Shown one piece after another: positions 4,588-52,675 of a stretch of DNA of 64,000 bases. A model generated the notes under the pieces. That model had not been told where the DNA came from, did no database searches, and was given only the letters and a program-made list of their open reading frames with translations. Positions within the stretch are counted from its first letter, which is position 1; the number at the start of each line of letters is the position of its first letter. Source of the DNA: Caprella mutica (Eukaryota > Arthropoda > Malacostraca > Amphipoda > Caprellidae); assembly GCA_947561585.1 (NCBI GenBank), contig CANNZV010001175.1:124024-188023 (forward strand). The letters run 5' to 3'. A program made the translations under genes and the position numbers.

Positions 4588-5357
4588 TGGAAAAGCTATA
4601 GTATCTTAGATACGGTCTTACTATAAATGAAAGAGCTATAGTATCTTGGATACAGTCATACTATAAATGGAAAAGCTATAGTATCTTAGATACGGTCATA
4701 CTATAAATAGAGAAGCTATAGTATCTTAGATACGGTCAGACTATAAATGAAAGAGCTGTAGTATCCTAGATACGATCAGACTATAAATGAAAGAGCTTTA
4801 GTATCCTAGATACGATCAGACTATAAATGGAAGAGCTATAGTATCCTAGATATGATCAGACTATAAATTGAAGAGCTATAGTATCCTAGATACGATCAGA
4901 CTTTAAATGGAAGAGCTATAGTATCCTAGATACTATCAGACTTTAAATGGAAGAGCTATAGTATCCTAGATACTATCAGACTTTAAATTGAAGAGCTATA
5001 GTATCTTAGATACTATCAGACTTTAAATTGAAGAGCTATAGTATCCTAGATACTATCAGACTTCAAATGGAAGAGCTATAGTATCCTAGATACTATCAGA
5101 CTTTAAATTGAAGAGCTATAGTATCCTAGATACTATCAGACTTCAAATGGAAGAGCTATAGTATCCTAGATACTATCAGACTTTAAATTGAAGAGCTATA
5201 GTATCCTAGATACTATCAGACTTTAAATGGAAGAGCTATAGTATCCTAGATACTATCAGACTTTAAATTGAAGAGCTATAGTATCCTAGATACTATCAGA
5301 CTTTAAATGGAAGAGCTATAGTATCCTAGATACGATCAGACTTTTAATGGAAGAGCA
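4588..5357. repeat. 40-bp minisatellite, ~19 units
   Basis: A tandem array with a 40-base period. Each unit contains a near-palindrome, GTATC-YTA-GATAC. In the later, more homogeneous units this extends to 8-base arms, ATAGTATC-CTA-GATACTAT. Early units carry GATACGGTC instead. From about 5040 to 5320 the units alternate between endings 'aaattg' and 'aaatgg', giving an 80-bp dimer. No coding role is suggested. Confidence 0.9.
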
Positions 5358-5816
5358 TATATATAGTATATGGGTTATTAAAGCTATATAAAATGATGTG
5401 AACACTTTTATATCAATAAATTGAATAGAAATTAAACGATATGAAAAATAAAATAGGAAATAACTTCATTTGAATATAAAGTCTATTTTCATGACTAATT
5501 GGAAGAACTTATGAAATAATAAATATATGAATATTACTATAGAATAATTAATACAAAGTGAGTTCCCAGAATACTTATTTTAAAGCTGTTGAAATTATGA
5601 ATTTTTCTAATTAATCTCCATGGAAATACTAAACGTTTTAATTTAGAAATTTAACTCAGCATTCATTTTACTGTAGGTATATAAAAAGTAAATTGAAATA
5701 TATAGGATAGGATATATTATACATGAAGATATTCTCTATAATATTAAAATCGTTTAGATATTTCATCGATACATCTTATCGGCGACAGGTCATAAATTGG
5801 ATAAATGGATATTAGA

Positions 5817-5844: not shown

Positions 5845-5949
5845 CTGAGCGATGCTTTCCCTCTGAAAATATCATCAGCTGAGAATTGAATTTTGGAGAT
5901 TTTCAAAAGCAATTTGGACTGGTGTAAAAACAGAGAAATTTAGGACCGA

Positions 5950-7716
5950 TGAATTGGGAAAAGGGTATGAATTGAGAAAAGGGTATGAATTGGGAAAAGG
6001 GGATGAATTGAGAAAAGGGTATGAATTGGGAAAAGGGTATGAATTGAGAAAAGGGGATGAATTGGGAAAAGGGGATGAATTGAGAAAAGGGTATGAATTG
6101 GGAAAAGGGTATGAATTGGGAAAGGGGTATGAATTGAGAAAAGGGTATGAATTGGGAAAAGGGGATGAATTGAGAAAAGGGGATGAATTGGGAAAAGGGG
6201 ATGAATTGATAAAAGGGTATGAATTGGGAAAAGGGTATGAATTGGGAAAAGGGTATGAATTGGGAAAAGGGGATGAATTGAGAAAAGGGTATGAATTGGG
6301 AAAAGGGTATGAATTGGGAAAAGGGGATGAATTGAGAAAAGGGTATGAATTGAGAAAAGGGTATGAATTGGGGAAAGGGTATGAATTGGGAAAAGGGTAT
6401 GAATTGAGAAAAGGGTATGAATTTGGAAAAGGGTATGAATTGGGAAAAGGGTATGAATTGAGAAAAGGGTATGAATTGGGAAAGGGGTATGAATTGGGAA
6501 AAAGGTATGAATTGGGAAAAGTGTATGAATTGAGAAAAGGGTATGAATTGGGAAAAGGGTATGAATTGAGAAAAGGGTATGAATTGAGAAAAGGGTATGA
6601 ATTGGGAAAGGGGTATGAATTGGGAAAAGGGTATGAATTGGGAAAAGGGTATGAATTGGGAAAAGGGTATGAATTGGGAAAAGGGTATGAATTGGGAAAA
6701 GGGTATGAATTGGGAAAAGGGGATGAATTGAGAAAAGGGTATGAATTGAGAAAAGGGTATGAATTGAGAAAAGGGTATGAATTGAGAAAAGGATATGAAT
6801 TGAGAAAAGGGTATGAATTGAGAAAAGGATATGAATTGAGAAAAGGGTATGAATTGAGAAAAGGATATGAATTGAGAAAAGGGTATGAATTGAGAAAAGG
6901 ATATGAATTGAGAAAAGGATATGAATTGAGAAAAGGATATGAATTGAGAAAAGGATATGAATTGAGAAAAGGGTATGAATTGAGAAAAGGGTATGAATTG
7001 GGAAAAGGGTATGAATTGAGAAAAGGATATGAATTGAGAAAAGGGTATGAATTGAGAAAAGGGTATGAATTGAGAAAAGGGTATGAATTGAGAAAAGGAT
7101 ATGAATTGAGAAAAGGATATGAATTGAGAAAAGGATATGAATTGAGAAAAGGGTATGAATTGAGAAAAGGGTATGAATTGAGAAAAGGGTATGAATTGAG
7201 AAAAGGGTATGAATTGAGAAAAGGGTATGAATTGAGAAAAGGATATGAATTGAGAAAAGGATATGAATTGAGAAAAGGATATGAATTGAGAAAAGGGTAT
7301 GAATTGAGAAAAGGATATGAATTGAGAAAAGGATATGAATTGAGAAAAGGGTATGAATTGAGAAAAGGGTATGAATTGAGAAAAGGGTATGAATTGAGAA
7401 AAGGATATGAATTGAGAAAAGGATATGAATTGAGAAAAGGGTATGAATTGAGAAAAGGGTATGAATTGAGAAAAGGATATGAATTGAGAAAAGGATATGA
7501 ATTGAGAAAAGGATATGAATTGAGAAAAGGATATGAATTGAGAAAAGGGTATGAATTGAGAAAAGGATATGAATTGAGAAAAGGATATGAATTGAGAAAA
7601 GGATATGAATTGAGAAAAGGATATGAATTGAGAAAAGGGTATGAATTGAGAAAAGGGTATGAATTGAGAAAAGGGTATGAATTGAGAAAAGGGTATGAAT
7701 TGAGAAAAGGGTACTA
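5950..7716 (+). repeat. 18-bp minisatellite, ~98 units, open in one + frame
   Basis: About 98 tandem units of GAATTGRGAAAAGGGTAT. In one frame they read as a hexapeptide, E-L-(R/G)-K-G-(Y/D), for about 587 codons before a stop. The frame probably is not a gene. It begins at a TTG and contains no in-frame ATG; extended upstream it reaches a stop near 5864, also without an ATG. Since 18 is a multiple of three and the unit lacks a stop in this frame, openness is automatic. By inspection all three minus-strand frames are also stop-free. The first half mixes G and R units; the second half is almost all R units with GGG/GGA alternation. A coding exon joined by splicing to an upstream ATG cannot be excluded. 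Confidence 0.9.
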
Positions 7717-8360
7717 ATTAGGGAATTTAATGGGTGTGTGAATTAAGGGATTGAGTGAGATATGCTGGAACGAATTAGTTTGCTTCCCTCTTATATATTC
7801 TATGGCCCCACCATAACTTTGCACCTGTAGACTATAGTATAGTACTATATGCCTTACAGTTTCCAGATGGAGACGTATGTATATGAGTAAACATTAACTA
7901 TTTATTTACTAAGAATCATACTACCATGTGGCACATCACCTTAGCTACGATGCCGTACAGGACCTCGGTTATCTACGAGTAAATATATATTTTATCTTTT
8001 ACATATAATGTTCTTCTATAATCTTTTCATTATTACTTAATGAAGGATCTCTAATTTCTATATTTTCTAATAAAAAACAATTTTACAAAATATATTGTTT
8101 CTAAATATAAAAGTACCTAATTTAGGTTTCAGATATTTCGAAGTTTGATTCGAAATATTTTTTTATTTCGTAAAAATATTCAAATGATTTGTTAGTCCAA
8201 GTTAGCAAATTCAGAAATGTTAAAGAGCTTAAATGAATTTTTAGGGAAAAGTTTTCTTTGGATTCTCAAATGACGTCAGAAACTAAAATTAGAAAAATGA
8301 TATTGAATTAATATTTACGTAACGAAACTAACTCTGAAGAATATTTATTATTAGGCAACA

Positions 8361-9215
8361 TTAGACTGATGGTAGATATGCACAGAACTTATTAGACTGA
8401 TGGTAGATATGCACAGAACTTATTAGACTGATGGTAGATATACACAGAACTTATTAGACTGATGGTAGATATGCACAGAACTTATTAGACTGATGGTAGA
8501 TATACACAGAACTTATTAGACTGATGGTAGATATACACAGAACTTATTAGACTGATGGTAGATATACACAGAACTTATTAGACTGATGGTAGATATGCAC
8601 AGAACTTATTAGACTGATGGTAGATATACACAGAACTTATTAGACTGATGGTAGATATGCACAGAACTTATTAGACTGATGGTAGATATACACAGAACTT
8701 ATTAGACTGATGGTAGATATACACAGAACTTATTAGACTGATGGTAGATATACACAGAACTTATTAGACTGATGGTAGATATGCACAGAACTTATTAGAC
8801 TGATGGTAGATATACACAGAACTTATTAGACTGATGGTAGATATGCACAGAACTTATTAGACTGATGGTAGATATGCACAGAACTTATTAGACTGATGGT
8901 AGATATACACAGAACTTATTAGACTGATGGTAGATATACACAGAACTTATTAGACTGATGGTAGATATACACAGAACTTATTAGACTGATGGTAGATATA
9001 CACAGAACTTATTAGACTGATGGTAGATATACACAGAACTTATTAGACTGATGGTAGATATACACAGAACTTATTAGACTGATGGTAGATATACACAGAA
9101 CTTATTAGACTGATGGTAGATATGCACAGAACTTATTAGACTGATGGTAGATATGCACAGAACTTATTAGACTAATGGTAGATTACACAGAACTTATTAG
9201 ACTGATGGTAGATAT
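8361..9215. repeat. 31-bp minisatellite, ~27 units
   Basis: Near-identical tandem units of 'attagactgatggtagata' followed by 'tRcacagaact'. Almost the only variation is one G/A site. Read in order the units give GGAGAAAGAGAAAGAGGAAAA and then AAAGG, followed by a unit with a small deletion. Units 3-8 and 9-14 carry the same pattern AGAAAG, so a block of six units (about 186 bp) seems to have been duplicated. No gene is involved. Confidence 0.9.
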
Positions 9216-21799: not shown

Positions 21800-21919
21800 C
21801 ATGTTGCCAGTGTGTTTTCGCTCATGTATTTTCAATTCCCAGACCGAGTGGTCTCGTAGTCACAATATGAACATTTTAGTTTGACACCAGTGTGTATATT
21901 TTGATGTCTTTTTAAAACA
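21800..21919 (-). pseudogene. Decayed 3' extension of the zinc-finger array
   Basis: Beyond the TAG the sequence still reads as finger code in other frames. A finger half (LKRHQNIHTG) and another (CSYCDYETTRSGN, then LKIHERKHTGNM) are separated by frameshifts. The first frameshift is a 4-base duplication of CTAG, which also creates the stop. The second is a missing T in the last finger. The array was therefore once at least eight fingers long. Confidence 0.7.
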
Positions 21920-24900
21920 CTAGCTAGAATAAATGGTTTCGTAATCACAATGGTAACCTTTCAACATATTGCCAGTATGTTTTCTTTCATGAATTTTCAA
22001 ATTTGAAGACCAAATGGTCTTGAAGTCACAATATGAACATTTTAGTTTGACACCAGTGTGTATATTTTCATGTTGTTTCAAAGAACTAGAATAAATGGTT
22101 TCGTAATCACAATGGTTACATTTCAACATATTTCCAATATGTTTTCTTTCATGAACTTTCAAATTATCAGACCGAGCGGTCTCGAAGTCACAATATGAAC
22201 ATTTTAGTTTAACACCAGTGTGTATATTTATATGTCTTTTCAAAGTACTAGAATAAATGGTTTCGTAATCACAATATGAACATTTAAGTTTGACACCAGT
22301 GTGTATTTTTACATGCCTTATCAAAGCCCTAGAATGAAACGTTTTGAAATCACAAAAGTTACATTCTAACTTATTTCCAGTATGTTTACGTTCATGTTCT
22401 TTCAAATAACCAGACTGAATGGTCTCGAAGTCACAATATGAACACTTTAGTTTGATTCCAGTGTCTTTTTTCAAATGACTAGAATTTTCCTTATCAACAT
22501 TAAGATCATCATAATTAATACTTTCATTATTAGACGCTTGGTTTTTAAATGATTTGGTTAAGCTCTCAACATTTTTGCTCCTAAATACAGATTTTTCATT
22601 CCTTAGTTTGGAGATAATTAACTTATCAATTTTTCCAAAATTTGATGATGTGAAATCATGTTTGAATGAATGGTGACAAGAAGAGGACTCGTTACCTGGA
22701 AGGGAAGCAAATAATAAAAAATATTGAACAGATATGCTTAATTTTTTTCAATATTATTATCTCTCACAATGATTTGAATTTTTGGCCTATATCAATCCAC
22801 TATGTGTTGGATATAAAATTCATAATATATAAGCAGAGCAAAACCTTATTTGATGTTATTATTTTTTGTTGATTAATCAGCTAATAAGCGGGCCATTTTC
22901 GATCAGGTTTACCTGAAGGAATTCCTCGAATCTTGGTGAAACTGATCGTGAATGGGGGTATTTGTTAGTACGACGGTCAGTTGGCCGGATGAGGAACAGG
23001 TGATGCTTGGTTTTTGAGGCTTGGTTTAAGTGTTCTGAGGGGAAAATTGAACGTGAATGGTGATCGATCAAGTAAGTGCTCAGTCTTAGCCACGTGCCGC
23101 CACTGATTTAGCATTGAAAGACTTTGAATTAGTCATCCTTGGTTTCTTTTAAGTAGAATACGACGCAACAAGCCCTAATTCATCAACCCTAACTCATTAT
23201 CACAAATAGAGGAAGCCATTCTATGGCCTGAACGGGTGTAGGACTTCAACTTTAAATAAATATTAATCCGTACTATAAATAATCATGAAGTGTGTAATAC
23301 CAGCTATGTTGAGTGATTCAAAGTAATTTTAATTTATTAATATATATGAACATAAAAAAGAGTGGTTCATGTCCGAGGGGCTTATGTCCATTGAGGCTTA
23401 TGTCCGTCCCCGCTTGAACACCACGGTAGTGTATCCTGCAGTGACCTGCAGTGATTGAAGCACGTCCTCGTTCAGCGCCAAAAGGAATTCCATTAGGTCT
23501 GACTGATCGTGAATGGCCCGATATATAATCATTCAAAATCGATTTAGATATAGATAAAAATTTATTGCTTTTATTTATTCGAAGATATAAACCCTTCGCT
23601 CATTACTCACCAGTGGAAAATTTGAAAACAAATAAGCCAGTAGCAATTATAAAAGGTACCTTTACAATTTTTTAAATTCTGATAACAGATAAATATTGTA
23701 AGTAACTACACACATTTACAGAAGAGACGATGATGTCTACTTTATTTGTTTGTTAAAATGCACTTACTGGAAATGTGGTTGACAACCTTTGGAGTGACGG
23801 GTGCAAGTCCCAGCTCTTTACCAAAGTCATCACCGTACCAAACCATCAGTTCAGTTCCCCTGTGATAGACAAACATAATAATTCATTCGTTAGTAGTGGG
23901 TATACGTCTGTTTCGGCAATCATTTTGCTGACACCAAAAGGAAAATAAATACAAAGGATTCAGAATGGAGAGTGACCTGAATAACCTAGTACCAATTGCT
24001 GCATAAAAGCTACTTCGTGAATACTGTCACTTACAAAGGAATGTGACGAACTGGGAGATAAGCTCGGTGACTGCATTCACAGATTGAAGAGGAAAATGAA
24101 AAGGTGATAACAAAGGAAGCCTACGAAACCTAACTAACACAACATCAAGCACCTCGTAGTTGAAGAATATAACTTTAGTGAAAGTATAAAACTGCGTTAA
24201 AAATTTTAGTGATGAAATTTAAGGAATATATACTAAGACAATATGTAACCCAATTCACATCAGTTCGTAATAAATGCATATTAATATAAATATAGAATTA
24301 GATAATGAACACAATTTAGGTTTGTAAAATTAGACAAACTATTGATACATAATCCAAGACAACCAAATTAATCCCCATGAAAAGGAATTACCTTATTTTT
24401 TGTAAAAAGGAGTTTCTAACAAACCTTGGAATAGTGCTTATGGTTCTATAGTAGATGTTTCCATTGTATTGATAGACTGCCAAGTTGATCTCCTTGTTAT
24501 ACGTAGCACATTTGACGTAACGCATCCAGTTGGAGACGCTCGTATCAACTGCGTCGACCCAGAGCCCTGTATATAAAAAGCGGGACTATGTCAATTGATC
24601 CTCGGTCATTTGATCCTCAGCCATTTGATCCCCGTACAATTCGATTCCCGGTCAACTGATTCCCAGTCATATTCATACACCTAGTATTTATTTATCATAT
24701 GTGTAATTGTGTTATTTAATTAAATTAATTATTTAGCAAATAATCGAAATATGCACCTTACAGTCGATTGAGTTTTTTAATAAGAGTAAAAACAGTTAAG
24801 AAGAATAAAAAAAAAAATCAAATAAGTAACAATATATATTATATATTTTATATTTTATATTCTGGCATCAATATAGTGGTACCTATAATCAAATGTACCT

Positions 24901-27900
24901 CGCACTTATTATAACTGGCATATATGACAAAGCAAATAAATCAGAAGCATGTCTCGTAATTATTTTACCTGTTATTGAAACTAATTGTGGAGTAACTTTT
25001 GACAATTCTATTGGTAGTTTTCAGTTCAGCTTTTGTCGCCTTGACTATTACATTTATTATCATCATGCAGGTGGGAAATCAAAAATCATTTTATAAAAAT
25101 CTATCCCACCTACATTAGGTATAAATAGGTGGCACTAGAACTTTTCCCCGCCAGGACTTTTCCCGGCCAGGACTTTACCCAGCCAGAACTTTACCCAGTC
25201 AGGACTTTTTCCCCCTGAATGAAATATCAGTATTTTGGGCTATGAAATTATAATTTTGATAAAACAAAAAATTAACAATAGAAGACACATTTTATTAACT
25301 GAAACTAATTCCCGTATGTGCCCATATTGGTCGTTCGATTTTAAGACTTTGACTTCGTATTTTCGTATATAATTAAGAGATGCTAGAAAGTATAAACATT
25401 ATTGTAATACTATAGGATTATCAAATATCGCAAGGTTTTCTAAGCTGCTTCAATATATTCAGTTACTCCAACTCTATAGTTTTACATATCGTGAATTTAT
25501 TATTTTATTTTTCAGCTGTTATAAAAAATAGCGATCTATTAACTAATCGTTCAAATTTATGCTTTTCCAGAGTACTAATAAATTTTATGAAAAAAAAATT
25601 AATTTAATAAAAAAAGATTAATTTATTAATTAATTTTTTAATTAATATACCACAAAATTATTAAACCTACTATAGATTTTCATTACACCTAATATTTGAC
25701 TCTTTTTTAGTGTTCTTTTTTCTATGTGTATTTAATATTTATAACTAAAAAAATTACAATGATTTAACCATTATTATGAAAATACCTAGGTAAGTTAAAG
25801 TGTAGAAATCCTTAAATCAAATCTTTTCACGTAGTCAGGTCTCAGAACGATTTATATAAATTGCCGTACATTTTCTCTAAAATTCTCCAATGAAAACTAA
25901 TGATCGAGGAGTAACCAATACAAAACGGGGATCGGTTCAAGGAGTTGGTGGTCGGCCCATTTCCACTCAAGTATAGGTTCCACCTATGCGGCAATAATAT
26001 TAAAGGGGGGGGGGGGAATCCAAAAAAAGGTCTGTTATTTTAGACGGCAGACAATTTCATGGCAACGGATATTTTTGTCAAAACTATTTTTAAAATTAAA
26101 TAAATAGTCGCAATATTAAATTATCTTCCTGAGTTTAAATTAATAAATACCAGCAGGGAAAAGTCCTGGCGGGGAAAAGTCCGGCGGAGAATAGTCCGGC
26201 GGAGAATAATCCGGCGGGAAATAGTCCGATTTCCCATATAGGTATATGAACTTAGCTTGCTAATCTACAAATCAATTTTTGATTGTAAATATTTGTAAAT
26301 ATTTCCTATCACCTGTAAGATGTTTTCTGACTAGTTGTAAATCTAAATTATTTGTAAATAGAAAATAATTAATTTGTTGCTGTAATAAGTTGTAGCTGTT
26401 TGAATTCTGTTAATTTTATTACTACATATAAAATTAATTAGATAAATAGTAAATGTCAATTTGTTTCGCTTGTTTTATTTATTATTTTAAGAGTAAATGC
26501 CAATTTTTATATAGAAATATAAAGATCGTAATAAATATTGTATGCTAATTGTATATAACCAAACAATGAATATGACTGGGAATCAAATGATCGGGGATCT
26601 AATGACCGGGGATCAATTAACCGGCCATCATGAAAAGGAGTTGAGAAATAGCAATTAAGAATATGAACGAGATCATGGTGCTGAAATCGCTTACTGAAGA
26701 GGAAGTAACTGAAATTATGACATATTTCTGATTATTTTCGAATCAAGATCAAAAACTTCTTCAAATTTTCAAAATAAACAAAAAACTTTCAATGACTCTA
26801 ATGTGAATGCTTTATTATTTTTTCATTTATGACAAAATTGCCTTTACCTTCCATATCAAATGTCTTGATAGGCCACCCGTAGCCAGAATCCACTTTGCTC
26901 TCTGACATATCAGAGAAAATACCCTGGTAAGGACCGAAAACTAAGCAACAAGGTAAGTTTTCAGTGGTGAAAACACCCAAGCCAGCAAGGGGACCTTTAG
27001 ACTCTTTCACTTGCAGTGGGTAGGGGGTAGATAAACTTGCCCTATAAGTTACAGTCCTGGGAATCTGGGAAAATTTGTATTTAACGTAACTTAATGTTAC
27101 AGTAAACATAAATATATTACACAAGTATGTTAGGTATAGAATCTTTTTAGGGAATAATTCTTAATTTTGCACTTCCATATTTATTTTTCTTAATTTCATA
27201 CTACCATCGCTCGATGAAGATAATATACCATATTAAGTTTTGTTCGATTAAATGTGCGAATAGACTAAATATACGCATCGAAAAAAGAAAGGTATATTCA
27301 AAAACTTTAATAGAATCGGTATTGAGGATAGAAAATCATAGATCATTCATAAATAAATTAAGATAATTGACCTATGCAATCTATTGTCAGTTCGAATTCT
27401 TGTAAATTTATTCTTACGGGATTATCCAATACGAGAACAGTTTCGTGCTTTGGACAATGGCCAAAAAAATCCTCATTGCAGTGTTCACAGTCTGAAACAG
27501 ATAGGATTATTTATGTATTTATCAACATTAGTAGGGGTTTAACGTCTGCTTCAGAACCAAAGGCCATATTGCTGACATCAATAGAAAATTAGGTACAAAA
27601 GACTGAAAGAAGCAGTCTGTAAGGATTTGACTATACGAACAAACTACATACCACCTTCGGCGAGAAAGACGATGATTGCAGAAAACCTACGCTGAGAATG
27701 TAGTCACTTACCAAGGAAAGTGAAGAAAAGTGGCACAAGCGTGGCTGCACTCATGGATAGAAGAGGAAAAGAAGATGTGATAGTAAAAAAACAATCCTTC
27801 CTATCACAAAAATCTAAAACTACGTGGTTGAAGAGCATAACCCTAGCTCTACTCTCTAAAACTTTTTATCATATTAGATTATTAAAATAGCTAAAATGTG

Positions 27901-29037
27901 CAAAAAAACATGTAATCCAGATTACAACAGTTCAGGTTTCCTTCTCTTCCAGTCACCACAGACAGTTTTATGAAAACTCTTTGGGGCTCGCGATTTAATA
28001 ATACTCTTCATATAGGTGTTTTATATATTAAGAATTAAGGTTTGGTTTCAAGTGAAAGATAAACTGGATATTCCATATATAAAAGTTCTATTACTACTAA
28101 CTTTCAATATTCAAATTGGAAGCTGACCAATAATGATTAAAAATTAAAATTAATTTTAAAAAGCAGCAAGAACCCTTATATTAAAAGGCAAAAATTTTGC
28201 ATAGTTACATTATTTCATTTTCAACGATTTATAAAGATTAATAGCAAATTAGACTCACAGAGACGTTTGTCATCATTGATGTTAACAGTGTCTTCGTAGG
28301 TATTAGAAATGACTTTACTTCGCTTGGGATTGGTATCGTCATCATAATTTATGTATTTATCAATCATTTTGTTTACATCATCTTCATTTACATAATCATC
28401 AAAAAATTCACTCTTGTTGAGATCATAAAGAGATTCAATTGGTACTTCTTCACCGTCATAATTATCAATAGTGTCACCATAGGACAAGTCCATAAGACCA
28501 TCAGGCTGATTCATGGCCATCCTCACTATTTCTTTCATAGACAGGTTATTCTCTAACACTTTGTCAGTACAATCACTCAGTTCAGATTCATTCTTCTCAA
28601 TCTGCAAGCTATCTGATGGTTCATCTACAGATACAGTCTTAGTATCATTTTCTTTTACTATTTGAAGTACAGTAGTCTTCTCAATGAATTTCAATGCTCT
28701 TTTCAGCAAGTCACTGTAGTTAGAATGAGATACAGGTTTTCTAGAAGATATTTTAGAACAATAGTCGTTGAAGTCACCCAGATCTTCTCCTACTATGAAC
28801 ATCAACTGTTTGGTTATAAGGTTAATAGTTAATCTTAAATCTAAAAATATAAGATATTCTATTTGGCTATTCTACCATTTAAATACACACCAAAAAAAAT
28901 CCAAAATACATTTATGATCTCTGGACATTGAAAATGAAACTGTTGTAACTATTTTTAACCAGTTAGAAGAACTGAAGAAAAACTAGATACCTACCTAAAG
29001 GGCCTTGTAGACGTGACACCTTTTGTATCAGCAACAT
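21920..29037 (-). CDS. PRDM9-like SET-domain zinc-finger protein
   Basis: Probable nuclear histone-lysine methyltransferase with a DNA-binding zinc-finger array. Exons on the minus strand: 29037-28995 (tentative start), 28840-28259, 27491-27418, 27064-26848, 24566-24425, 23859-23768 and 22695-21920. All splice sites are GT-AG and all phases join, giving 641 codons plus TAG. Residues 15-208 are an acidic domain I do not recognise. About 209-233 form a zinc knuckle, YCEHCNEDFFGHCPKH, as in PRDM7/9. About 234-383 form the PR/SET domain: PLAGLGVF, LVFGPYQG, SNWMRYVKCA, NIYYRT and LMVWYGDDFGKELG. From about 465 there are six intact C2H2 fingers (C-x2-C-x12-H-x3-H) and a seventh that lost its first Cys (LKGYHC) and ends at TAG. 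No KRAB or SSXRD domain was seen. The first exon is the weakest part. The introns carry elements FB2, FB3 and FB7 and two family-B repeats. Confidence 0.85.
22888..23521. mobile_element. Foldback-like element FB7 in the last PRDM9-like intron
   Basis: Inverted ends: 'gggccattttcgatcagg' at 22890-22907 faces 'actgatcgtgaatggccc' at 23502-23519, and both reach 'ggaattcc' inward. Internal copies of 'gatcgtgaatgg' occur in both halves. No coding sequence was found. Confidence 0.5.
23885..24185 (+). repeat. Family B repeat, copy B2 (SET2-SET3 intron)
   Basis: Shares 'acgtctgtttcgg', 'gtgaatactgtcacttac', 'gaagaggaaaatgaa' and 'cctcgtagttgaagaatata' with the other B copies. It is antisense to the PRDM9-like gene whose intron it occupies. 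Confidence 0.6.
24591..26629. mobile_element. Foldback-like element FB2 (SET1-SET2 intron)
   Basis: Arms at 24591-24677 and 26566-26629 are inverted copies of a 15-base unit (TGATCCCCGGTCATT and variants), ending inward at TTCCCAGTCATATTCAT on both sides. The left end lies about 24 bases from the acceptor of the exon at 24566, so the element probably supplies the branch point for that splice. Element FB3 is nested inside. No transposase was found. Confidence 0.65.
25136..26235. mobile_element. Foldback-like element FB3, nested in FB2
   Basis: Arms at 25136-25217 and 26151-26235 are inverted arrays of a 15-16 base unit, GGACTTTTCCCCGCCA, with variants such as GGACTTTACCCAGCCA. The interior of about 930 bp is AT-rich with a G run near 26000. 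No coding region was seen. Confidence 0.65.
27535..27990 (+). repeat. Family B repeat, copy B3 (intron after the N-terminal exon)
   Basis: A fairly complete B copy, from 'ggtttaacgtctgcttca' through 'gttgaagagcataaccctag' to the 'ctttggggctcg' end. The corresponding introns of the SET-less paralogues retain only the distal half of this element, which places a deletion breakpoint inside it. Confidence 0.65.
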
Positions 29038-35447: not shown

Positions 35448-35811
35448 AAACATGAAATTTAGTAAAAAGGGACTTGAAGAAGCACCGAGAAAGGAAAGTA
35501 GATCCTTGAGTAGAGTCACCGACTACGATCTATTAATTCTCTTCATACAAATATAGGTATATTATTCATTACGAATCAAGTTAGCTTATTAATTTTATTT
35601 CACGTTTAAGATTTAATGATCTATATATGAAAGTTCAATTACTACTAACTTTCAGTATTCAATTTGGAGTCTGATCAATAATGGTTACAAAATATAATTC
35701 AATTTAAAAAAAGCTGTAAAAATCCTTTACTTTTAAAGCAAATATTCAAGCACATCTGCATAATTAAATTTCTGAATATTTCTAGTAATTGATAGCAAGT
35801 TAAGACTCACG

Positions 35812-36430
35812 GAGAAGTTTGTCATGTTAACAGTGTCTTCACAGGTTTTCAAACTGACATCATTTGGGGGCAGGGGGTCCGATTATCAGACTAGGGGTTT
35901 TAAACATTATTCCGATCCCCCCCTCATTGTCCCGAGGCTACTCTTAGGTAGGCCTTCTTTTTGTTATAATGTAGGTCTTAGGTTTTGTTTAGTTTGACGC
36001 TCTTTTTCTTCAGCTTCCCTTTGTATCTCTCCTCAAATTCTTCTTCTTATTTCCTCTTCCTTCTGCCTTGCTATATCCATGGATAAGCAGACTGACAGTG
36101 TAAGTCTCTTATCCATGGGTGTCTATTCTTGCCATCCATGCGCTGGGTCGACACAGTTACCTGTGGTAGCCGAGTAGTCGACCTAGTGCATGGAGCGTAC
36201 TTTCACTTTCCCCTCTTCTACGTTGCCTTCTTCTCTTCATGTATCTTTGGATCACCTCGAAGTGGATAGGGACAACTTTTAAACCTTGAATATAAAAATA
36301 ATAACTGACATCATTTCGTTTGGGATTAATGTCATCATAATTTATGTGTTTATTCTTCATTTCGTTTCATTAACTTCATTGACATAATCATCAAAGTGTT
36401 GACTCTCGTTGGGATATTTCTATCGAACAA
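35812..36430 (-). pseudogene. Broken copy of the PRDM9-like N-terminal exon
   Basis: The minus strand reads NKHINYDDINPKRNDVS and then, after an insertion, CEDTVNM. These match YINYDDDTNPKRSKV and YEDTVNI of the N-terminal exon at 28840-28259. Frameshifts and stops occur throughout, and the exon is interrupted by the insertion at 35866-36302. Intron sequence beyond it (35590-35800) also matches 28070-28250. No SET or finger exons follow on the minus-strand side. Confidence 0.75.
35866..36302 (+). mobile_element. 437-bp retroposon-like insertion, 14-bp TSD
   Basis: Flanked by perfect 14-base duplications AACTGACATCATTT (35852-35865 and 36303-36316), within a pseudogene whose reading is continuous once it is removed. 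The element starts in a G-rich stretch and ends in an AT-rich tail ('aatataaaaataat'), typical of retroposition. The motif TAGCCGAGTAG faintly resembles a pol III A box, but no B box was found. The family is unknown. Confidence 0.7.
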
Positions 36431-37087: not shown

Positions 37088-38321
37088 CAGGGTGGGGCGT
37101 AAGTTTGGAAGCAAATGAAAGTGCATATTATAATCCAACGAAAAATATATTTAATAATTTACAGTTATGTATTATTACATAAGGGTTTTAAGAATTCAAA
37201 AATCATAAATTTATTCAAAATGTCCCCCCTTGTTTTTAATAATAGTCTCAAATCTCCTCCGAACTCCTCCTACTGCGGCACGCAACTGTTCTTGTGAAAT
37301 TTCCTTCCAAGATCTGTGGAGCGAACGCTTTAAATCATCCACACTGCGATGGAATTTACCACAGGCCTTTGATTCAAGAATGAACCATACCGAAAAGTCC
37401 ATAGGATTAACATCTGGGGAGCAGGGAGGCCACATTTCTTTGGATCAAAACCGTGGAAGATGGTCATGGCACCAGTTTTGAGTGACATTTGCAGTATGTG
37501 AAGTCGCGGCCGTCTTGCTGAAATGTCCAAAGAGTGTCATTACCGAAGCGATCCTTAGCTGACTCCAACATTGGCGTCAAAATATTCTCAATATAACATT
37601 TAGCATTGATTTTGGCACCTTGTTCCACAAAAATTAATAGAAACCTCCAAGTTTCTGAAACGGCGGCCCAGACCATTACTGAAGCAGGTTTCATGGTTCT
37701 GTGGACAGTTTTTTGGTTGTATGGGATGTCTTTTGCACTTTTACCAATTATTCTGTCATTCCTCCGGTTGTGAGCCATTTCCACTGTGAAAATTTTTTCG
37801 TCAGACCAAACAATTTCACCAGCCGTGCCAGACTTCAATTCTCTCAGAAGTGCTTTGCTTCTCTCCAATCTCTTTTTCTTTACAGCTTCTGACAGAGTCT
37901 GTCTCTTTAGGAGGGTGAAAGAGGACATCTTTAGGTCTTCTTTGACAACTCTTCTCATTGTTCTGGGACTCACATTAGCTGTTTTGGCTAACAATCGTAT
38001 TGACCTTTTCGGGTTCCTCCTGATCTTCTCTCGGGCATATTTTATCAGTTGTTTGGTGTGTTGTGAGCGTGGTCTACCACTTCTTGGACGATCAGTCAAG
38101 TCTCCTCTCTCATTAAAACGCTTCACACACTTCCAAACAGTCGATCTCGCTATTGAGAGAGTCTTTGAAATGACGGAATCTGACTTCCCGGCACGGTGTA
38201 GAGCAATAATGGCTTCTCTTTTGTCTGACATTTTTGAATTGACTAAATTTTTGTAAAAAATAACACTGCCACGTCATAATGTAGTGTCTCTACTATAGTT
38301 CAAACCCTATCACCTACTTAG
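37088..38321 (-). mobile_element. Mariner/Tc1-superfamily transposon (DD37D-like)
   Basis: The left end is 'cagggtggggcgtaagtttg' next to TA (37086-37087). The right end is placed near 38321 ('ccctatcacctactta') from weak inverted similarity, so it is uncertain. The element carries one transposase frame on the minus strand. Counting from the second Asp (QQDG) to the last Asp (NPMD), after allowing for the frameshift, gives 37 residues, the spacing of the maT-type DD37D group. Confidence 0.7.
37211..38231 (-). pseudogene. Transposase of the mariner-type element, two lesions
   Basis: The reading starts MSDKREAIIALHRAGKSD (38231) with a paired helix-turn-helix region (SVISKTLSIARSTVWKCVKR; GRPRS linker). 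The first catalytic Asp lies in IVWSDEKIF, the second in FQQDG near 37515, and the third in SPDVNPMDFSVW near 37405. After QQDG there is a +1-type frameshift (near 37500). About 50 bases later a TGA stands where the family has Trp (near 37443). The C-terminal part continues in the other frame to 37211. The element is therefore not autonomous. Length and motifs otherwise fit a full-length transposase of about 340 residues. Confidence 0.85.
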
Positions 38322-39581: not shown

Positions 39582-41427
39582 TTAATGTTTATTCTGCTCA
39601 TGTCTTTTTAAACGGTCAGACCGACTGGTCTCGTAATTACACTGAGTACATTTTAACATATTTCCAGTGTGTTTTCTTTCGTGTTTTTTCAAATTACCAG
39701 ACGAAACGGTCTCGTAATCACAATATGAACACTTCAGTTTTTCTCCAGTGTGTATTTTTTCATGAATTTTCAAATGACTAGACGAAACGGTCTCGTAATC
39801 ACAATATGAACACTTAAGTTTGTCTCCAGTGTGTATTTTTTCATGTTTTTTGAAATTACCAAACGAAAAGGTCTCGTAATCACAATATGAACACTCAAGT
39901 TTGTCTCCAGTATGTATTCTTTCATGAATTTTCAAATTACCAGATTGAATGGTTTCGTAATTACAATATGAACACTTAAGTTTGTCTCCAGTGTGTATTC
40001 TTATATGCTTTTTTAAATTTCCAGAATGATTAGTTCGGTAGTCACAACACGAACAATTAAATTTTTTAGTTCCTTTAATAGCTGCACTGTTTTCTTTATC
40101 CTCATTGATACCATCACAATTAACTCTATCAGAATCAGACTCATGGTTTTCAGATGATTTAGCCGAGTCTTCAACATTATCTTGCTGAACAGACGGACTT
40201 TTTCCCTGTGGTTTGGAGATAATTTGTACTTTCTTCTCTCCATAATTCGATGCATTAAAATTATATCTGAAAGTTCTCAGATAAGAAGAGGTTTTGTCAC
40301 CTGGAAATGAAGCAAAAAAATAAATAAATATGCTTAATATATTTTTATCCTTGATATTATGTCTCATGTGGGCTAAAATATTTGGCAAATTTAAATATGA
40401 GCAAGATATAAAATTCAAAGCAAATGATTGAAAGAACTCTTCAGCAAAACGATAATTTGATAGTACTATTTAGACTAGTAAATTTTTTTTGTAAAGAACT
40501 CGTAGTTGAAGAGCATAACCCTAGTGCTATCCTCTCAAACGGCAAGTAGCGTTAAAAAAGAGATAAACATGGTAAAATGGAAAGACAATACATAACCCAA
40601 ATTGCAACAGTTTATGACCTATTTACACCAACCCCTTCAACTTCCTTTCACCATAGACAGCTTCTAGATAGAGCTCCTGGGATTCTATTAATTAAAACTG
40701 AAAGATCGGTAATTCTAACAGGTGAATATTCTTGCATAACTACATAATTACATTGTATGATTGTTAATACGGAAAGTTAAAACTCACATAGAAGTGTGTC
40801 ATCAATGGTTTCAACAGTGTCTTCACAAGTGGTAGAACTTAGATTCTTTCGCATGGGATATTTTCTCCTGAATTCATCATCATATTTGAGTTCATCCTTC
40901 ATTTCGGGTTCAGAATCTGTATCAAGGTAAGTACCACATCCAACACTCTTCTTGCGATCATTGACAGGTATGATGGTAATTCCTTCATTGATTATAGTCT
41001 CAATGGAATAAAACAAAAAATCACTTTCATCCCCTAAGATGAAGTCAACACTATCATCACTTAGCTCTGACATATTCACTTCATGCTGCTTCATTGTCAT
41101 CTTCTCAATTTCTTCCATAGTCAAGTTATTATCCAACATTTTGTCAGTACTATCACTCAGTTAATATTCATTCCTATCAATCTGCAAGCTATCTGACGGT
41201 TGATCTGCAGAAACAGTCTCAGTTTCGATTACTTTCACTATTTGAGGGTTAGTAGTCTTCTCAATGAATTTCAAAGCACTTTTAAGCAAATCACTGTAGG
41301 GACAAAGAGAAGCAGGTTTTCCCGAAGATATTCTGGAACAGTAGTCCTTGAAGTTAACCAGATCTTCTCTTTCTATATACATCAACTGTTTGGATACAAA
41401 GTTATTAGTTACTTTTATAAAATTCAA
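39582..41427 (-). pseudogene. SET-less PRDM9-like paralogue b
   Basis: Two exons homologous to the first coding part and the last exon of the gene at 21920-29037. The N-terminal exon is about 41427-40788 (donor T|GTGAGT). The finger exon is 40301-39582, open to its natural stop. Both junctions are phase 1, so they join in frame as Cys although the zinc knuckle and PR/SET exons are gone. The N-terminal exon has an in-frame TAA at 41161-41163 where the intact gene has GAA. Translation could restart at the Met near 41139. The last exon has six good C2H2 fingers (CSYCDYETVSSGNLKKH type, TGDK linkers), ending RHEQNKH. It may be a pseudogene or may make a shorter DNA-binding protein without methyltransferase. 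Confidence 0.75.
40495..40690 (+). repeat. Truncated family B repeat, copy B6
   Basis: Only the distal half of B is present, starting at 'aactcgtagttgaagagcat' directly after a T run. This abrupt start sits in the sole intron of paralogue b and marks the probable deletion junction. It is repeated at 48547-48740 in paralogue c. Confidence 0.65.
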
Positions 41428-42289
41428 ATGACAAAGGTCCCCCTAAACTAATAAATCTGTTGCAAATGTAGGCATCTTTATGCAGTTTAAATTTATATTT
41501 CAATGGAATTAACAATAATAATAATATATACATAAATCATATAACAATATATCGAACTATATTAGATCTAGTAATAAGAAACATAAATTTCTCTATAAAT
41601 GATTACTTCTTGAATCAAATAGTTTTTGGATGCAGGAAAGCTACTCTGTGCCAGTATTGTACCACTTCATGTTGGGAGCAGTTAAGTTTCAAACTGCTCT
41701 CTGTTGGCATTGTCTCCTGATTGGTTGAAGATCTCTTGCATTTTATTCGGATAGCGCTTATTCTGTTCACCAATTATGGCTGGTACGCTGTTAGATGTAG
41801 CTTCCCTGATAGTATAAAATTATATTTCTTACCTATTATTTTTTCATATCATAATAAAAAAAACTGAAAGGCTTAAATTTAATGTTTTATACGTTTGAAA
41901 CAAAAATTAAGTTACTTAATGATTTCTAAGGTCGTAAAATTAATCGATATTTACGTATCTCAACCAATTGTATGATTGACAGTTTATTACCATCTTGATG
42001 ATTATAAACTCAAAGTATATAGATGTGATTCTCAGTATCAAATCAATATTGAATAACAACGTTTTAAGTGCATTTGGGGGTATTTTATATCCTATGATAA
42101 AATGCATAGTTTTAATTTTAATTCTTCAAATTATTGAAATACCACACATACCAGGCGGCTAACATTTTGTTTTTATGTGTATGCCGTCCAGTCCACTGCT
42201 AATACATACATATTCACGGACTCACAGTATTAAGAATCAGGGTACAGGAACATAAACGGGTATAGTACCTAGTAGACGTCGCAAGAAAT

Positions 42290-42982
42290 TGACGTCACCA
42301 CAACAACACATTCCTTGTTTGTGACCGAGCGGTTCATAATTCCTCGTATTTGCATGTTAATATCGAGAAGTTTAAAGTCATTTTTTAAGGGTTTCGTGCA
42401 AAAGAAAAGCGAAAATGGCGATTGAACCTCAAAGTTGAATATATAGATAAAATTCAGGTGTGTTTTTATTGTTCATTTCTTTAACTTATCTATAAAAAAT
42501 AAGGTCTTTAACCTAGGAGCCTAAACTAGTGCTAGTTAACTGCTAAATTGTAGCTCCTATGAATAACGATTAAGGAAAAAAATAATGGAAATACAATTTA
42601 ACCAATGCCTAGTTAGTAATTGATAAGAAAAAAATTTAATTTAGAAGTGACTAAGTTTAAGTAGGTTTTCCCATGTTTCAAAGTGTGGCCAGAGTCGCCA
42701 TTTCCAGTCACCCGGTGGTCACGTCAAACTAGATTCGATCAGCTGATTACCATACCCTATGTTACTGTATCCTGTATAGAATATAGTAGTGGTAATTGAG
42801 ACGGTTAGTGTAGTTGACGTCATCACAGCAACACTAAAATTAAATTTAAGGCAATCCAAGAGTGTTTAATTATAAAAAAAATGTTTATTTATAGCCAATA
42901 TAAGAAAAGAGTAATGGTGCATTCAGTTATTAAGACTACTTGGCCCTAATTTTCGTTTAAGTCTGTTGTCTTAATGACGTCA
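42290..42982. promoter_or_regulatory. Three CRE-type TGACGTCA sites
   Basis: Perfect palindromes TGACGTCA lie at 42290-42297, 42815-42822 and 42975-42982, and are kept in copy B near 57428, 57959 and 58120. This is the consensus for CREB/ATF-type bZIP factors. They lie about 1-1.7 kb upstream of the N-terminal exon of paralogue b. A promoter role is inference; chance or repeat origin is possible. Confidence 0.35.
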
Positions 42983-43160
42983 CGATAACAAGTCGCTCTA
43001 TTGTCACTACTACGTATGCAGCAGTGGACTGAAAAACAGACTTAATAATGTAGCTGATAGACGTTGTTATAGTTCCAGTACTATAACTTCCTTGACACAT
43101 ACGAACCTATAAATGAAGCCTTGATAGAATGTTGTTCAAAAATATTATCTGTCAATAATT

Positions 43161-43406
43161 GAAGAGTTTGGTTCCAAAACGCTATAAATCCATTTTGATC
43201 AATTTGAGTTAAAATGTGTTTTCTTTACCAAGAAAGTACAAAGATGAAAACCACTATTTTCTGTTTCAATCATTCACATAGCATATTGAGGTTATAATAA
43301 CATAAACAATTCAAATCCACAATACCGACGAAATACAATATTGATTTAGGTGGAAACTCATTTTTTTCAAAAGTGGCGTTTATCGCGTTTTGGAACCAAA
43401 CTCTTC
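43161..43406. mobile_element. 246-bp MITE, present only in copy A
   Basis: Perfect inverted ends of at least 22 bases, beginning GAAGAGTTTGGTTCCAAAAC, flanked by AATT (43157-43160 and 43407-43410). Copy B has the empty site 'caataatttatgatc' near 58307. Because AATT is its own complement, the border between target duplication and terminal repeat is ambiguous. It is non-coding. Confidence 0.85.
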
Positions 43407-43764
43407 AATTTATGATCATAATCAATATATGAAATTTTTGATTAGAATATAATCTTTGATGAGTTAATAATCTTCCGTTGGCAAATTTATTACCAAGCTT
43501 ATCAGGCAAATTCTGACTTGCATTATATGAGTAAGTTTCTATCTGGGCACATTTGTACAACTCAGTTTGTTTCTAACTCTCCTCTATTTAGTTTCTGAAT
43601 ATTGTGTCTAAACATCATCTTCTTCAAATTTAATGTATCTTATCATTGATTATGTTCTCACTAAATATGTCGCACATCTAAAGCCGCCAAGTGTTACAGT
43701 TAACTGATTATAGTGAAACATTCACCCTAATCCAGTATTTTCACCTTAAATACTAGAGAGATAT

Positions 43765-44003
43765 ACTAGGGTCACATAGATAAATTGCGGCTCTTTAATT
43801 TTCAATTGCGGCCCTCTCAAGCGAGTCTCTAAAACATTTTGAACAGAAACTACATTGAAATGTTGCATAGCTATCGAAAGAAGCGCAGTGCATGCTAAAA
43901 TTTATTAATTTAAATTTTTAACGGGAATTTTGAAGCTATGATGTTTCTTTTGTTAGAGGCCGCAGTTAGTTAGCGTGCCGCAATTTACCTGCTTGACCCT
44001 AGT
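43765..44003. mobile_element. 239-bp MITE with ACTAGGGTCA ends, copy A
   Basis: Inverted ends ACTAGGGTCA and TGACCCTAGT; 'taaattgcggc' on the left faces 'gccgcaattta' on the right. An equivalent of the same length sits at 58662-58900 in copy B, so it inserted before the duplication. A related end fragment occurs at 46262-46305. Confidence 0.75.
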
Positions 44004-44229
44004 CCATATACTTATATTTGAATGAATGTTCATAATAAGAATATCTTACCATTTATCATCTTTGTTTTGTCTAATCCTATGTAATTATGTGAAAAATTAA
44101 AAGTCATAAAGAGACATCTAACAAATCCGTTTAAAATTCTTTTTTTTTTTCATGAGGAATGGTGCACCAGAGCCAGCAGCTAGGTTACAAACAACAAGTA
44201 TGGTGGTTTGAAGTATATGAGGATATATT

Positions 44230-44590
44230 TATTAATTTTTAGTAGATGTTTAACATCTGCTTTGGAATCAAATGCCTCATATCACTAACGGAAATGAAAT
44301 TAAGTACAAGAAACTGGAAAAGGCAGTCAGAGAGGAAAAAGTTCAATAAATAAATTCACCTACCGCCGACAAAGCAACTCCGTGAATGCATTTACTTGTC
44401 AAGGAATTTGACAAAAGGTGTCACAAGCACTGATGTCTGTACCCACTTGATGGAAGAGGAAAATAAAGAAGTGATAGTACCTAAATGAAGTTTTCGAATA
44501 TACCTACCACATAAATCTTAAGATCTCGTAGTTAAAAACCATAACCTTATATATATCCTATAAAATTGTCATACTATCTCCAGACAGTTT
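44230..44590 (+). repeat. Family B repeat, copy B7
   Basis: A diverged B copy ('gtttaacatctgctttggaa', 'gtgaatgcatttacttgtca', 'gatggaagaggaaaataaag'). Its duplicate is at about 59120-59480. Confidence 0.6.
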
Positions 44591-45989
44591 TTTAATTCGT
44601 TGTTAGAGGAAAAAAAATCATTTTTTTCTTGTTTTACCCCACATCATAAAACTCAAGTTATCCAATAATGGTTTATCAAGAAAAAAAGAATCCGCATATC
44701 AAATCGTAAAAACCAAAACCACTCACATTTCCTAATTATATAGCAGTTTTAAGAAAAATATAACGAATAATTGGATTAATAACGATAACTAATGTCAATA
44801 TATCACAAGTTGAAGAACGGCACAGACACATCACAACCGCACAGGAACAAGTCAAAATAGTTAAACGTTTTTTAGTCAATTATCAACGTTCACTTCTTGT
44901 TCGATTAATACTTCAATCAATACCCCAGCAAACATAGTCGTGTCATTTATATTTCTAAACGATACCACTTGCTCTACACTTCCGGTGTAGAAAAAAGAAA
45001 CAAATCGATCCCTGTGCATCGTTTAGATAATTTTTTAGATTAGCAATACAACTCTCAAATAGATAGAATAAAATATATAAACGAAATCGTTTTAGTAATG
45101 TAAAATACACCAAATGCGATATAAAAACATATCTAAATTGAAGATATTTGGAAACTGTTTCGATGGATTATTGATACCATTATACTGTATCAATACTCTT
45201 TCTAAATGACGCATGAAAACGAAAGCGTTTTAGTAACGAAATAGACAGCAAATTCGATATCAAATATATATATATTGAAGACACATTTTCCGAAGAAAGT
45301 TAAAGGTCCCCTCCAAGCAAATTTTTTTATTGCTTTAAATCAACGAGGTTAATGTTCCTTATCATTTCACTGCAAACCCCCATAAAATTTGATAACATAT
45401 TTTTAATTTTTTTTAAAGATCTTTATAATCCAAACTCTACAAAACCTACTTTACTTCCGACTTTCTAATTTTCAGTCTAAAGAAGGAGAATGTGCACCAT
45501 TTTTTTTAATTGTCAACTAGGTATTCGGTTCAATATATCTATTTATTATTCGTTTAAGGTTTAAATTTGGATAAACTTAATAGAAACGTTTATATACTTT
45601 TAGAAACGATTAATATCTTTAAAAGAAGGCCAAAAACGCATTGTTTGTTTAAAATTCTAAATATGAAATCAAAACAAAGAGTGTACAATCTTATTTCTCA
45701 GCGTCAGGTTGGAGATTCGCTCGATTGTTGCTCACAGAGTATTAAAAAACTTTAATAGCAAATAATAAAATATATACTGAACCGAATTGTATGCGGTTTG
45801 CGGAATAATGATCGTAGACCTTAGTTCTATAATAAACTCATTTTTTACCCGGAGCCTGGAGAGGACCTTTAAAATATTAAGCTGTATTTCTTACCCACAT
45901 CTACTTTGTTGCATTGATTGCAATTTACATTTGGGGACATATCAATTTAATTAATGTTATATATACAAATAAATGGGGAAAAATGAAGT

Positions 45990-47693: not shown

Positions 47694-49480
47694 CTAAGTA
47701 CATTTTAACATATTTCCAGTGTGTTTTCTTTCATGTCTTTTCAAACTACCAGACGAAATGGTCTCGTAATCACAATATGAACACTTAAGTTTGTCTCCGG
47801 TATGTTTTCTTTCATGAATTTTCAAATTACCAGACGAAATGGTCTCGTAATCACAATATGAACACTTAAGTTTGTCTCCGGTATGTTTTCTTTCATGAAT
47901 TTTCAAATTACCAGACGAAATGGTCTGGTAATCACAATATGAACACTTAAGTTTGTCTCCAGTATGTATTCTTTCATGAACTTTCAAATTACCTGATTGA
48001 ATGGTCTCGTAATCACAATATGAACACTTAAGTTTATCTCCAGTGTGTATTTTTTCATGTATTTTCAAATGACCAGACTTATTAGTTCGGTAGTTACAAT
48101 ACGAACATTTGAATTTTTTAGTTCCTTTAATAGCTGCACTGTTTTCTTTATCCTCATTGAGACCATCACAATTAACTCTATTAGAGTCAGACTCATGGTT
48201 TTCAGATGATTTAGATGAGTCTTCAACATTATCTTGCGGAACAGACGGACTTTTTCCCTGTGGTTTGGAGATAATTTGTACTTTCTTCTCTCCATAATTC
48301 GATGCATTAAAATTATATCTGAAAGTTCTGAGATAAGAAGAGGTTTTGTCACCTGGAAATGAAGCAATAAATAAATAAATATGCTTAATATATTTTTATC
48401 CTTAATATTATGTCTCATATGGGCTAAAATATTTGGCAAATTTAAATATGAGCAAGATATAAAATTCAAAGCAAATGATCGAAAGAACTCTTCAGCAAAA
48501 CGATAATTTGATAGTACTATTTAGACTAGTGAATTATTTTTTTTTAAGGAACTCGTAGTTGAAGAGCATAACCCTAGTGCTATCCTCTCAAACGGCAAGT
48601 AGCGTTAAAAAAGAGATAAACATGGTAAAATGGAAAGACAATACATAACCCAAATTGCAACAGTTTATGACCTATTTACACCAACCCCTTCAACTTCCTT
48701 TCACCATAGACAGCTTCTAGATAGAGCTCCTGGGATTCTATTAATTAAAACTGAAAGATCGGTAATTCTGACAGGTGAATATTCTTGCATAACTACATAA
48801 TTACATTGTATGATTGTTAATACGGAAAGTTAAAACTCACATAGAAGTGTGTCATCAATGGTTTCAACAGTGTCTTCACAAGTGGTAGAACTTAGATTCT
48901 TTCGCATGGGATATTCTCTCCTGAATTCATCATCATATTTGAGTTCATCCTTCATTTCGGGTTCAGAATCTGTATCAAGGTAAGTACCACATCCAACACT
49001 CTTCTTGCGATCATTGACAGGTATGATGGTAATTCCTTCATTGATTATAGTCTCAATGGAATAAAACAAAAAATCACTTTCATCCCCTAAGATGAAGTCA
49101 ACACTATCATCACTTAGCTCTGATATATTCATTTCATGGTGCTTCATTGTCATCTTCTCAATTTCTTTCTTAGTTAAGTTATTATCCAACATTTTGTCAG
49201 TACAATCACTCAGTTAATATTCATTCCTATCAATCTGCAAGCTATCTGACGGTTCATCTGCAGAAACAGTCTCAGTTTCGATTACTTTCACTATTAGAGG
49301 GTTAGTAGTCTTCTCAATGAATTTCAATGCACTTTTAAGCAAATCACTGTAGGGACAAAGAGAAGCAGGTTTTCCTGAAGATATTCTGGAACAGTAGTCC
49401 TTGAAGTTAACCAGATCTTCTCTTTCTATATACATCAACTGTTTGGATACAAAGTTATTAGTTACTTTTATAAAATTCAA
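47694..49480 (-). pseudogene. SET-less PRDM9-like paralogue c
   Basis: Duplicate of paralogue b. The N-terminal exon is about 49480-48841 and has the same in-frame TAA (49214-49216). The finger exon is 48352-47694. It keeps five C2H2 fingers; the sixth is cut by CAG to TAG after LKCT at 47694-47696, while the rest of that finger is still readable to about 47636. Helix residues at -1/+2/+3/+6 are K-G-H-I, Q-G-N-V, S-G-N-I, S-G-N-I and S-G-S-R. The upstream region is displaced by more than 7 kb of LINE sequence inserted about 100 bases before the N-terminal exon. Expression is doubtful. Confidence 0.75.
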
Positions 49481-52666: not shown

Positions 52667-52675
52667 CTCCTATTG

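Follow-up and report, generated by a model that had tools for sequence, protein, structure and literature searches.

A PRDM9-like gene with a distinct N-terminal domain, and its SET-less relatives, in a probable crustacean assembly

A 64,000-nucleotide stretch of DNA (the window), part of a 903 Mb assembly of 7200 contigs, was found to encode on its minus strand a gene, designated gene A, that is most likely an intact member of the PRDM7/9/11 group in a pancrustacean and one of a lineage-specific family. We consider it likely that this identity and family structure hold together with an active methyltransferase, the activity being predicted. The absence of PRDM9 from Drosophila has made arthropods look uninformative, and recombination directed by PRDM9 is not known to be established outside the vertebrates. 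A crustacean gene with a SET domain, a finger array and a different N-terminal domain (NTD), together with zf-CW and PWWP exons in the assembly, offers a system in which to ask whether PRDM9-type hotspot control predates vertebrates and whether it needs KRAB and SSXRD.

Structure of gene A and its SET domain

Gene A comprised six coding exons (1845 nt, 614 amino acids) with GT/AG at all intron borders, a structure drawn from its sequence and from conservation in its paralogs (designated B, B′, C, D and E and described below). The protein has, in order, the NTD, a zinc knuckle (from residue 182), the PR/SET domain, a linker and six C2H2 fingers (from residue 441). GLGVF was located at residue 234 and VWYGDDFGKELGL at residue 332. 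The features of the gene, all on the minus strand, were as follows.

28259..28802, minus strand: exon 2, the first supported coding exon, with the ATG and the lineage-specific NTD; the exon itself runs from 28805 (acceptor and ATG conserved in paralogs, open frame)
27418..27491, minus strand: exon 3, zinc knuckle CEHC..C..H (junctions common to B, B′, C and D)
26848..27064, minus strand: exon 4, first part of PR/SET with GLGVF and FGPYQG (shared junctions, PRDM9 structure match)
24425..24566, minus strand: exon 5, PR/SET with NWMRYV and YYRT (shared junctions, PRDM9 structure match)
23768..23859, minus strand: exon 6, end of PR/SET with VWYGDDFGKELGL (shared junctions, PRDM9 structure match)
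21920..22695, minus strand: exon 7, with the linker and six C2H2 fingers (22444-21977), followed by a degenerate seventh and the stop
21832..21919, minus strand: finger remnants past the stop, degenerate and frameshifted (tblastn; 162-bp period in Tandem Repeats Finder)
28995..29037, minus strand: exon 1 of an earlier model (MLLIQKVSRLQGPL), unsupported; perhaps 5′ untranslated sequence or nothing

An earlier note on this DNA had proposed a PRDM9-like gene of seven exons between 29037 and 21920, with its motifs in the PRDM7/9 order. Every motif named there was present in that order on the minus strand (CEHC..C..H, GLGVF, FGPYQG, NWMRYV, VWYGDDFGKELG, then the C2H2 array), and the seven-exon model did sum to whole codons (1878 nt, in frame). 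The six exons from 28802 to 21920 were open, but the exon at 28995-29037 was rejected as coding: its counterparts in the paralogs reached nothing better than E 0.07 and it was out of frame with the splice acceptor downstream of it, which, like the ATG that follows, was conserved in the paralogs. The array has six good fingers; the seventh, at residue 603, is degenerate and has lost its first Cys, and the stop at 21920 follows. A second candidate, the exon 3 donor ATAG|GTCA, was discarded because its phases clashed and because CCC|GTAAGA was found in the paralogs. Exon 3 was accordingly ended at 27418 (CCC|GTAAGA) and exon 4 started at 27064, both junctions being common to B, B′, C and D; the splice junctions of exons 3-6 were shared by A, B, B′, C and D. 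The open frame of the array exon was 275 amino acids long, and the longest frames in 30 shuffles of the window had a mean of 121 and a maximum of 151 amino acids.

A 625-amino-acid model that included the unsupported exon 1 served as the query for the Pfam scan of the gene model, for both protein database searches and for the protein search with the NTD. Pfam analysis revealed PRDM2_PR (E 2.5e-33), SET (4e-6) and C2H2 fingers. Among solved structures, PRDM9 was the best match to the SET region (E 1.5e-35), ahead of PRDM11 (9.7e-23) and of other PRDMs (1.6e-16 or weaker). The zinc knuckle lay directly before PR/SET, such that query residues 1-163 aligned with PRDM9 chains and 1-161 with PRDM11. 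In the alignment to solved PRDM9, gene A had Tyr at the sites where PRDM9 has GPYEG, FYRT and WYGD, which we take to be Y276, Y341 and Y357. These three are given as the catalytic tyrosines of PRDM9 (PMC5519329).

The first protein database search yielded 9 proteins and the second, in which scoring was limited to the 7997 candidates with the most shared words, yielded 20. They came from decapods (these proteins lacking annotated fingers), molluscs, butterflies, a tick, nematodes and fish, or were of PRDM1/14 types. A phylogeny of 26 SET domains clustered A, B and C with four decapod PRDM9/11-like proteins (support 96/92), within a set that held vertebrate PRDM9/11. The earlier note had assigned the SET domain to PRDM7/9/11 and named a tree as the test; when this was run, a forced grouping of the A, B and C SET domains with PRDM1/14 was rejected (approximately unbiased (AU) test, p 0.0008), in agreement with that assignment, and the branch dividing the PRDM7/9/11 set from PRDM1/14 had a support of only 81/89.

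The SET exons are under purifying selection. Over 172 codons the ratio of nonsynonymous to synonymous rates (dN/dS) was 0.24 for A-C, 0.38 for A-B and 0.28 for B-C. Counts of synonymous and nonsynonymous changes unique to one copy were 13 and 19 in A (p 0.012 in a test against no constraint), 12 and 21 in B (p 0.039) and 19 and 17 in C (p 4e-5).

Finger array, N-terminal domain and paralogs

Array A consisted of six good fingers of the CDYET type and one degenerate finger, all in the last exon. The four DNA-contact positions were ranked among all 2380 subsets of four that can be drawn from the 17 free positions of the finger, and in array A they were the most variable subset (rank 1 of 2380). 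Pairwise, non-independent codon differences were 3 synonymous to 54 nonsynonymous at the contact sites and 59 to 103 elsewhere. The fraction of diversity at contact sites was 0.42 with a 21-amino-acid unit or 0.34 with a 27-amino-acid unit. PMC5519329, whose exact method differs from that used for array A, lists 0.33-1.00 where the gene is complete and 0.16-0.33 in fish copies with SET only; the 27-amino-acid figure does not separate those two classes.

The most conserved part of the NTD was approximately 45 residues long, with the consensus MYIExEDLVNFxDYCSRISSGEPVSHSTYSDLLKRALKFIEKTT. Of 340 candidates from the protein database none matched the NTD at E 0.001 or below, Pfam gave nothing better than E 0.01, and against solved structures nothing was better than E 1.1 by sequence or 0.99 by fold. 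The fold search says little because the AlphaFold model was poor, with a mean predicted local distance difference test (pLDDT) score of 49; the first 40 residues lay in blocks of 66-81. The model contained two short helices of moderate confidence, and the remainder was of little use. Profile comparison showed no similarity between the NTD and the N-terminal region of clam and whelk proteins. The possibility that the NTD is a divergent KRAB or SSXRD was also examined, and nothing was found by Pfam, PDB sequence profile, profile comparison or the fold search with its poor model; this bears out the statement in the earlier note that the N-terminus looks unlike either domain.

With the SET region as query, 22 exon matches were found in the assembly at an E-value of 0.001 or below. 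These represented gene A; B, on the same contig as the window (C1175, 242.5-244.5 kb); B′ (C6623), which matched B at 99.3% identity along 8.9 kb and is probably its allele; C (C2682); D and E (both C5); and a distant PRDM-like gene (30%) on C2930. Copy D had a frameshift in exon 4, FDPYQG for FGPYQG and a stop in finger 2, and copy E was partial. The NTD as query yielded 17 rows (E-value limit 10), of which 16 represented 13 loci; the seventeenth (C3447, E 0.9) was probably a chance match. Five of the 13 loci had a SET match (A, B, B′, D and E). The other eight had none: five on C1175, two of them inside the window, and one each on C1852, C2422 and C114. The related loci inside the window were as follows.

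40788..41382 and 39582..40300, minus strand: SET-less paralog (39.6-41.4 kb)
48841..49435 and 47694..48352, minus strand: SET-less paralog (47.7-49.4 kb)
35526..36415, minus strand: remains of an additional, decayed copy, comprising the 3′ portion of its NTD exon plus the next intron (blastn 70% over 344 columns, 79% over 117)

The paralogs at 39.3-41.5 kb and 47.3-49.5 kb were 94% alike. Both carried the same in-frame TAA in the NTD and one had a stop in its sixth finger; the three further SET-less NTD loci on C1175 also contained TAA. On C1852, C2422 and C114 the NTD exons and the finger exons were open, no SET exon was found between them, and joining them directly keeps the frame (phase 1 to phase 1). 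As C1852 and C2422 may be alleles of one gene, the open SET-less genes number two or three. The NTD exons of these two (extracted loci L038 1466-2842, minus strand, and L039 261-1223, plus strand) were also seen to contain an internal repeat of approximately 110 amino acids, present three times in one gene and twice in the other.

A tree of the NTD plus linker from nine copies placed the SET-less ones in two groups. Because this best tree needs two changes and a single clade was not rejected (AU p 0.23), we make no claim on one or two origins of the SET-less state. Loss of the SET domain would be a simpler direction than gain, because SET-plus-finger genes exist in clam, tick and butterfly.

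A possible role in recombination and the alternatives

We infer from the sequence that gene A would be transcribed and expressed in the germline, and that its protein would bind DNA, methylate histones and recruit partners. The six fingers of array A would bind a DNA site of about 18 bp if every finger binds, since a C2H2 finger usually contacts three bases. The PR/SET domain would then trimethylate H3K4, and perhaps K36, on nearby nucleosomes, while the NTD, whose best-predicted part is the pair of short helices, would recruit partners where vertebrate PRDM9 has KRAB and SSXRD. The arrays of the family may turn over through duplicated fingers or finger pairs and changed contact residues, so that the target site would drift. 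SET-less copies, which keep the NTD and fingers, could act as sequence-specific recruiters or as competitors without a methyltransferase. We propose tentatively that gene A (or C) may contribute to placing meiotic breaks. It is also conceivable, though doubtful, that the birth of the KRAB zinc-finger family has been replayed here, in that a PRDM9-like gene gained a new NTD and its duplicates, on dropping SET, became NTD-finger genes with fast-changing arrays. If true, PRDM9-type genes would give rise to new DNA-targeting gene families time and again, and those members that carry SET may steer where meiotic breaks form in an arthropod.

A candidate partner was sought among readers of the marks. 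Across vertebrates, loss of PRDM9 is coupled with loss of ZCWPW1/2, which read H3K4me3 together with H3K36me3 (PMC8892340). The assembly contained a single zf-CW match, at 41.1 bits (cut-off 27.5), and PWWP reached 26.8 bits (cut-off 25.6) only after two exons were joined manually. The zf-CW and PWWP exons shared one strand and a stretch of about 1.1 kb (C5076; extracted locus L046 1501-2600), with splice borders that were normal-looking by eye. The two domains form a ZCWPW-like pair, and their presence at one locus is suggestive of such a reader.

Several observations weigh against a PRDM9-type role. When taken apart, one PWWP exon scored 18.3 bits against the cut-off of 25.6 and the other had no match; the best solved match of the PWWP was NSD2 (E 0.005), and zf-CW alone was slightly nearer MORC4 (E 1.4e-5) than ZCWPW1 (1.9e-4). 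KRAB was not found by Pfam scan of the gene A model and of the NTDs or by profile comparison, and a whole-genome KRAB search was empty, its control search being silent too. SSXRD was absent among Pfam matches at E up to 1 and 10 for the model and the NTDs, a genome-wide search not having been made. Because neither domain was found, gene A, although it belongs to the PRDM7/9/11 group, is not a complete PRDM9. Its array is short, with only six fingers and a decayed end. Contact-site diversity is common across C2H2 families, and the codon counts above are drawn from array A alone. In the array on C114, variation was not concentrated at the contacts (rank 481 of 2380), and the array behind the broken SET gene D (extracted locus L028 4363-5766, minus strand) had about 15 fingers, ten of them with identical contact residues, and is homogenised, not diversified. 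Copy C had intact SET and fingers and no NTD detectable by search. The cluster also holds decay, since D and E are broken, two of the three window copies with an NTD carry a stop in it and a fourth is a remnant.

Some features of the family could also describe a set that silences transposons or satellites, as tetrapod KRAB zinc-finger proteins do, with the NTD recruiting a repressor, the fingers tracking changing repeats and the SET copies being ancestral. The duplicates are clustered, the SET-less NTD-finger genes have open frames, contact residues change and the region is rich in repeats (LINEs, a Tc1-like element and satellites). We regard this as possible but rather unlikely, as SET is constrained in A, B and C, NTD loci are few (13) and the NTD searches gave no known repressor-binding domain.

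That gene A is a PRDM11-like or gonad transcriptional regulator, marking promoters or enhancers in gametogenesis with no hotspot function, is likewise doubtful. Its nearest relatives are decapod proteins without annotated fingers, one of them named PRDM11-like, but gene A has a finger array with variation focused on the contacts and PRDM11 is not known to have an array. A gene called PRDM9 was reported in shrimp ovary, and not in eyestalk or hepatopancreas (PMC11048709), which would suit such a regulator. It is improbable that the cluster is dying and its copies are relics of which A is merely the least damaged, given that A has six uninterrupted coding exons joined by GT/AG splice sites and that SET is constrained on the A lineage and more strongly on that of C.

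Source of the assembly, window surroundings and known systems

The assembly is mixed, because bacterial COX1 genes were present on megabase contigs (C1, C2, C8 and others); symbionts or contaminants seem to have been assembled together with the animal. A mitochondrial-type COX1, with seven TGA inside the match, was found twice with equal scores, 15,426 bases apart, on C5068 (8653-25419), as if a circular mitochondrial genome had been joined to itself in tandem during assembly. The order there was cox1, tRNA-Leu(UUR), cox2, tRNA-Lys, tRNA-Asp and a frame starting MPQMAPL, where cox2 was named by recognition of its frame and the last frame was taken for atp8. The three tRNA genes were called by both ARAGORN mitochondrial modes and none by the general mode, and Rfam gave no tRNA in the second mitochondrial stretch. 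AGA stood at Ser positions in the mitochondrial-type frames. We take tRNA-Leu between cox1 and cox2 to be the pancrustacean arrangement. This order, with the decapod grouping of the SET domain, makes the source animal a probable crustacean, and the arthropod guessed at in the earlier note fits the pancrustacean-looking order, albeit in an assembly mixed with bacteria. That gene A belongs to an animal other than the owner of the mitochondrion is very improbable despite the bacterial genes on megabase contigs, as the SET tree independently pairs A with decapods and introns and LINEs mark the contig as animal.

Separately from the array paralogs, the window contained a near-identical duplication (41555-46287 against 56692-64000; 95.9-99.6% in three blocks). 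Other features of the window were as follows.

4582-5361, 5949-7713 and 8360-9215: satellite arrays with units of 40, 18 and 31 bases; in the 18-base array four frames are open over 600-616 amino acids
11619-16249, plus strand: probable multi-exon major facilitator transporter (MFS_1 E 2.7e-5 in the first exon, below the cut-off)
37464-38273, minus strand: Tc1-like transposase fragment with helix-turn-helix matches
49508-51301, plus strand: long interspersed element (LINE)-type element with reverse transcriptase
51839-56112, plus strand: LINE-type element with reverse transcriptase and endonuclease

Older papers counted three PRDM genes in arthropods (PMC2082429, PMC3445564), and crustacean gonad transcriptome papers name PRDM9 (PMC4132113, PMC4659196). 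Concerted evolution of Prdm9 fingers was described in anemone, snail and worm by Oliver et al. (PMC2779102), in whose main text the words 'arthropod' and 'insect' do not occur. Among the open-licence papers listed by literature searches on PRDM9, no title or abstract opening concerned arthropod PRDM9 families that have gained a new N-terminal domain or given rise to SET-less derivatives. A gene with SET and an array had been singled out in the earlier note as deserving attention; the gene is real, but it is less odd than implied because decapods, ticks and butterflies have annotated PRDM9-like proteins.

Gene A shared with vertebrate PRDM9 (Meisetz) the order of zinc knuckle, PR/SET and last-exon C2H2 array, the three catalytic tyrosines and variation at array contact sites. 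It differed in its new NTD, with KRAB and SSXRD not found, in its six CDYET-type fingers and in having several copies and SET-less relatives. The nearest SET domains were those of the decapod PRDM9/PRDM11-like proteins (Macrobrachium, Petrolisthes, Cherax and Penaeus; approximately 42-51% identity, one clade at 96/92), which are annotated without a finger array and gave no match in the NTD search. The Penaeus chinensis protein appeared to have two tandem SET domains, the first cut at its start. PRDM9-like proteins of the butterfly Maniola and the tick Amblyomma combine SET with C2H2 fingers in arthropods, as does A, but their SET domains were 34-39% identical, their fingers are of other types and the NTD search gave no match to them. 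In the clam Ruditapes philippinarum a 'ZNF737-like' protein has SET and a tandem array of CDYA-type fingers; it differs in its KRAB-like and SSXRD-like N-terminal segments (by eye), which had no profile similarity to the NTD. The KRAB of tetrapod zinc-finger genes has been proposed to derive from Meisetz/PRDM9 (PMC2082429). Like those genes, the SET-less copies have an N-terminal domain and an array without SET, although by the tests used here the NTD is unrelated to KRAB and the family is small; they would provide a second and independent instance of a zinc-finger family derived from a PRDM9-type gene.

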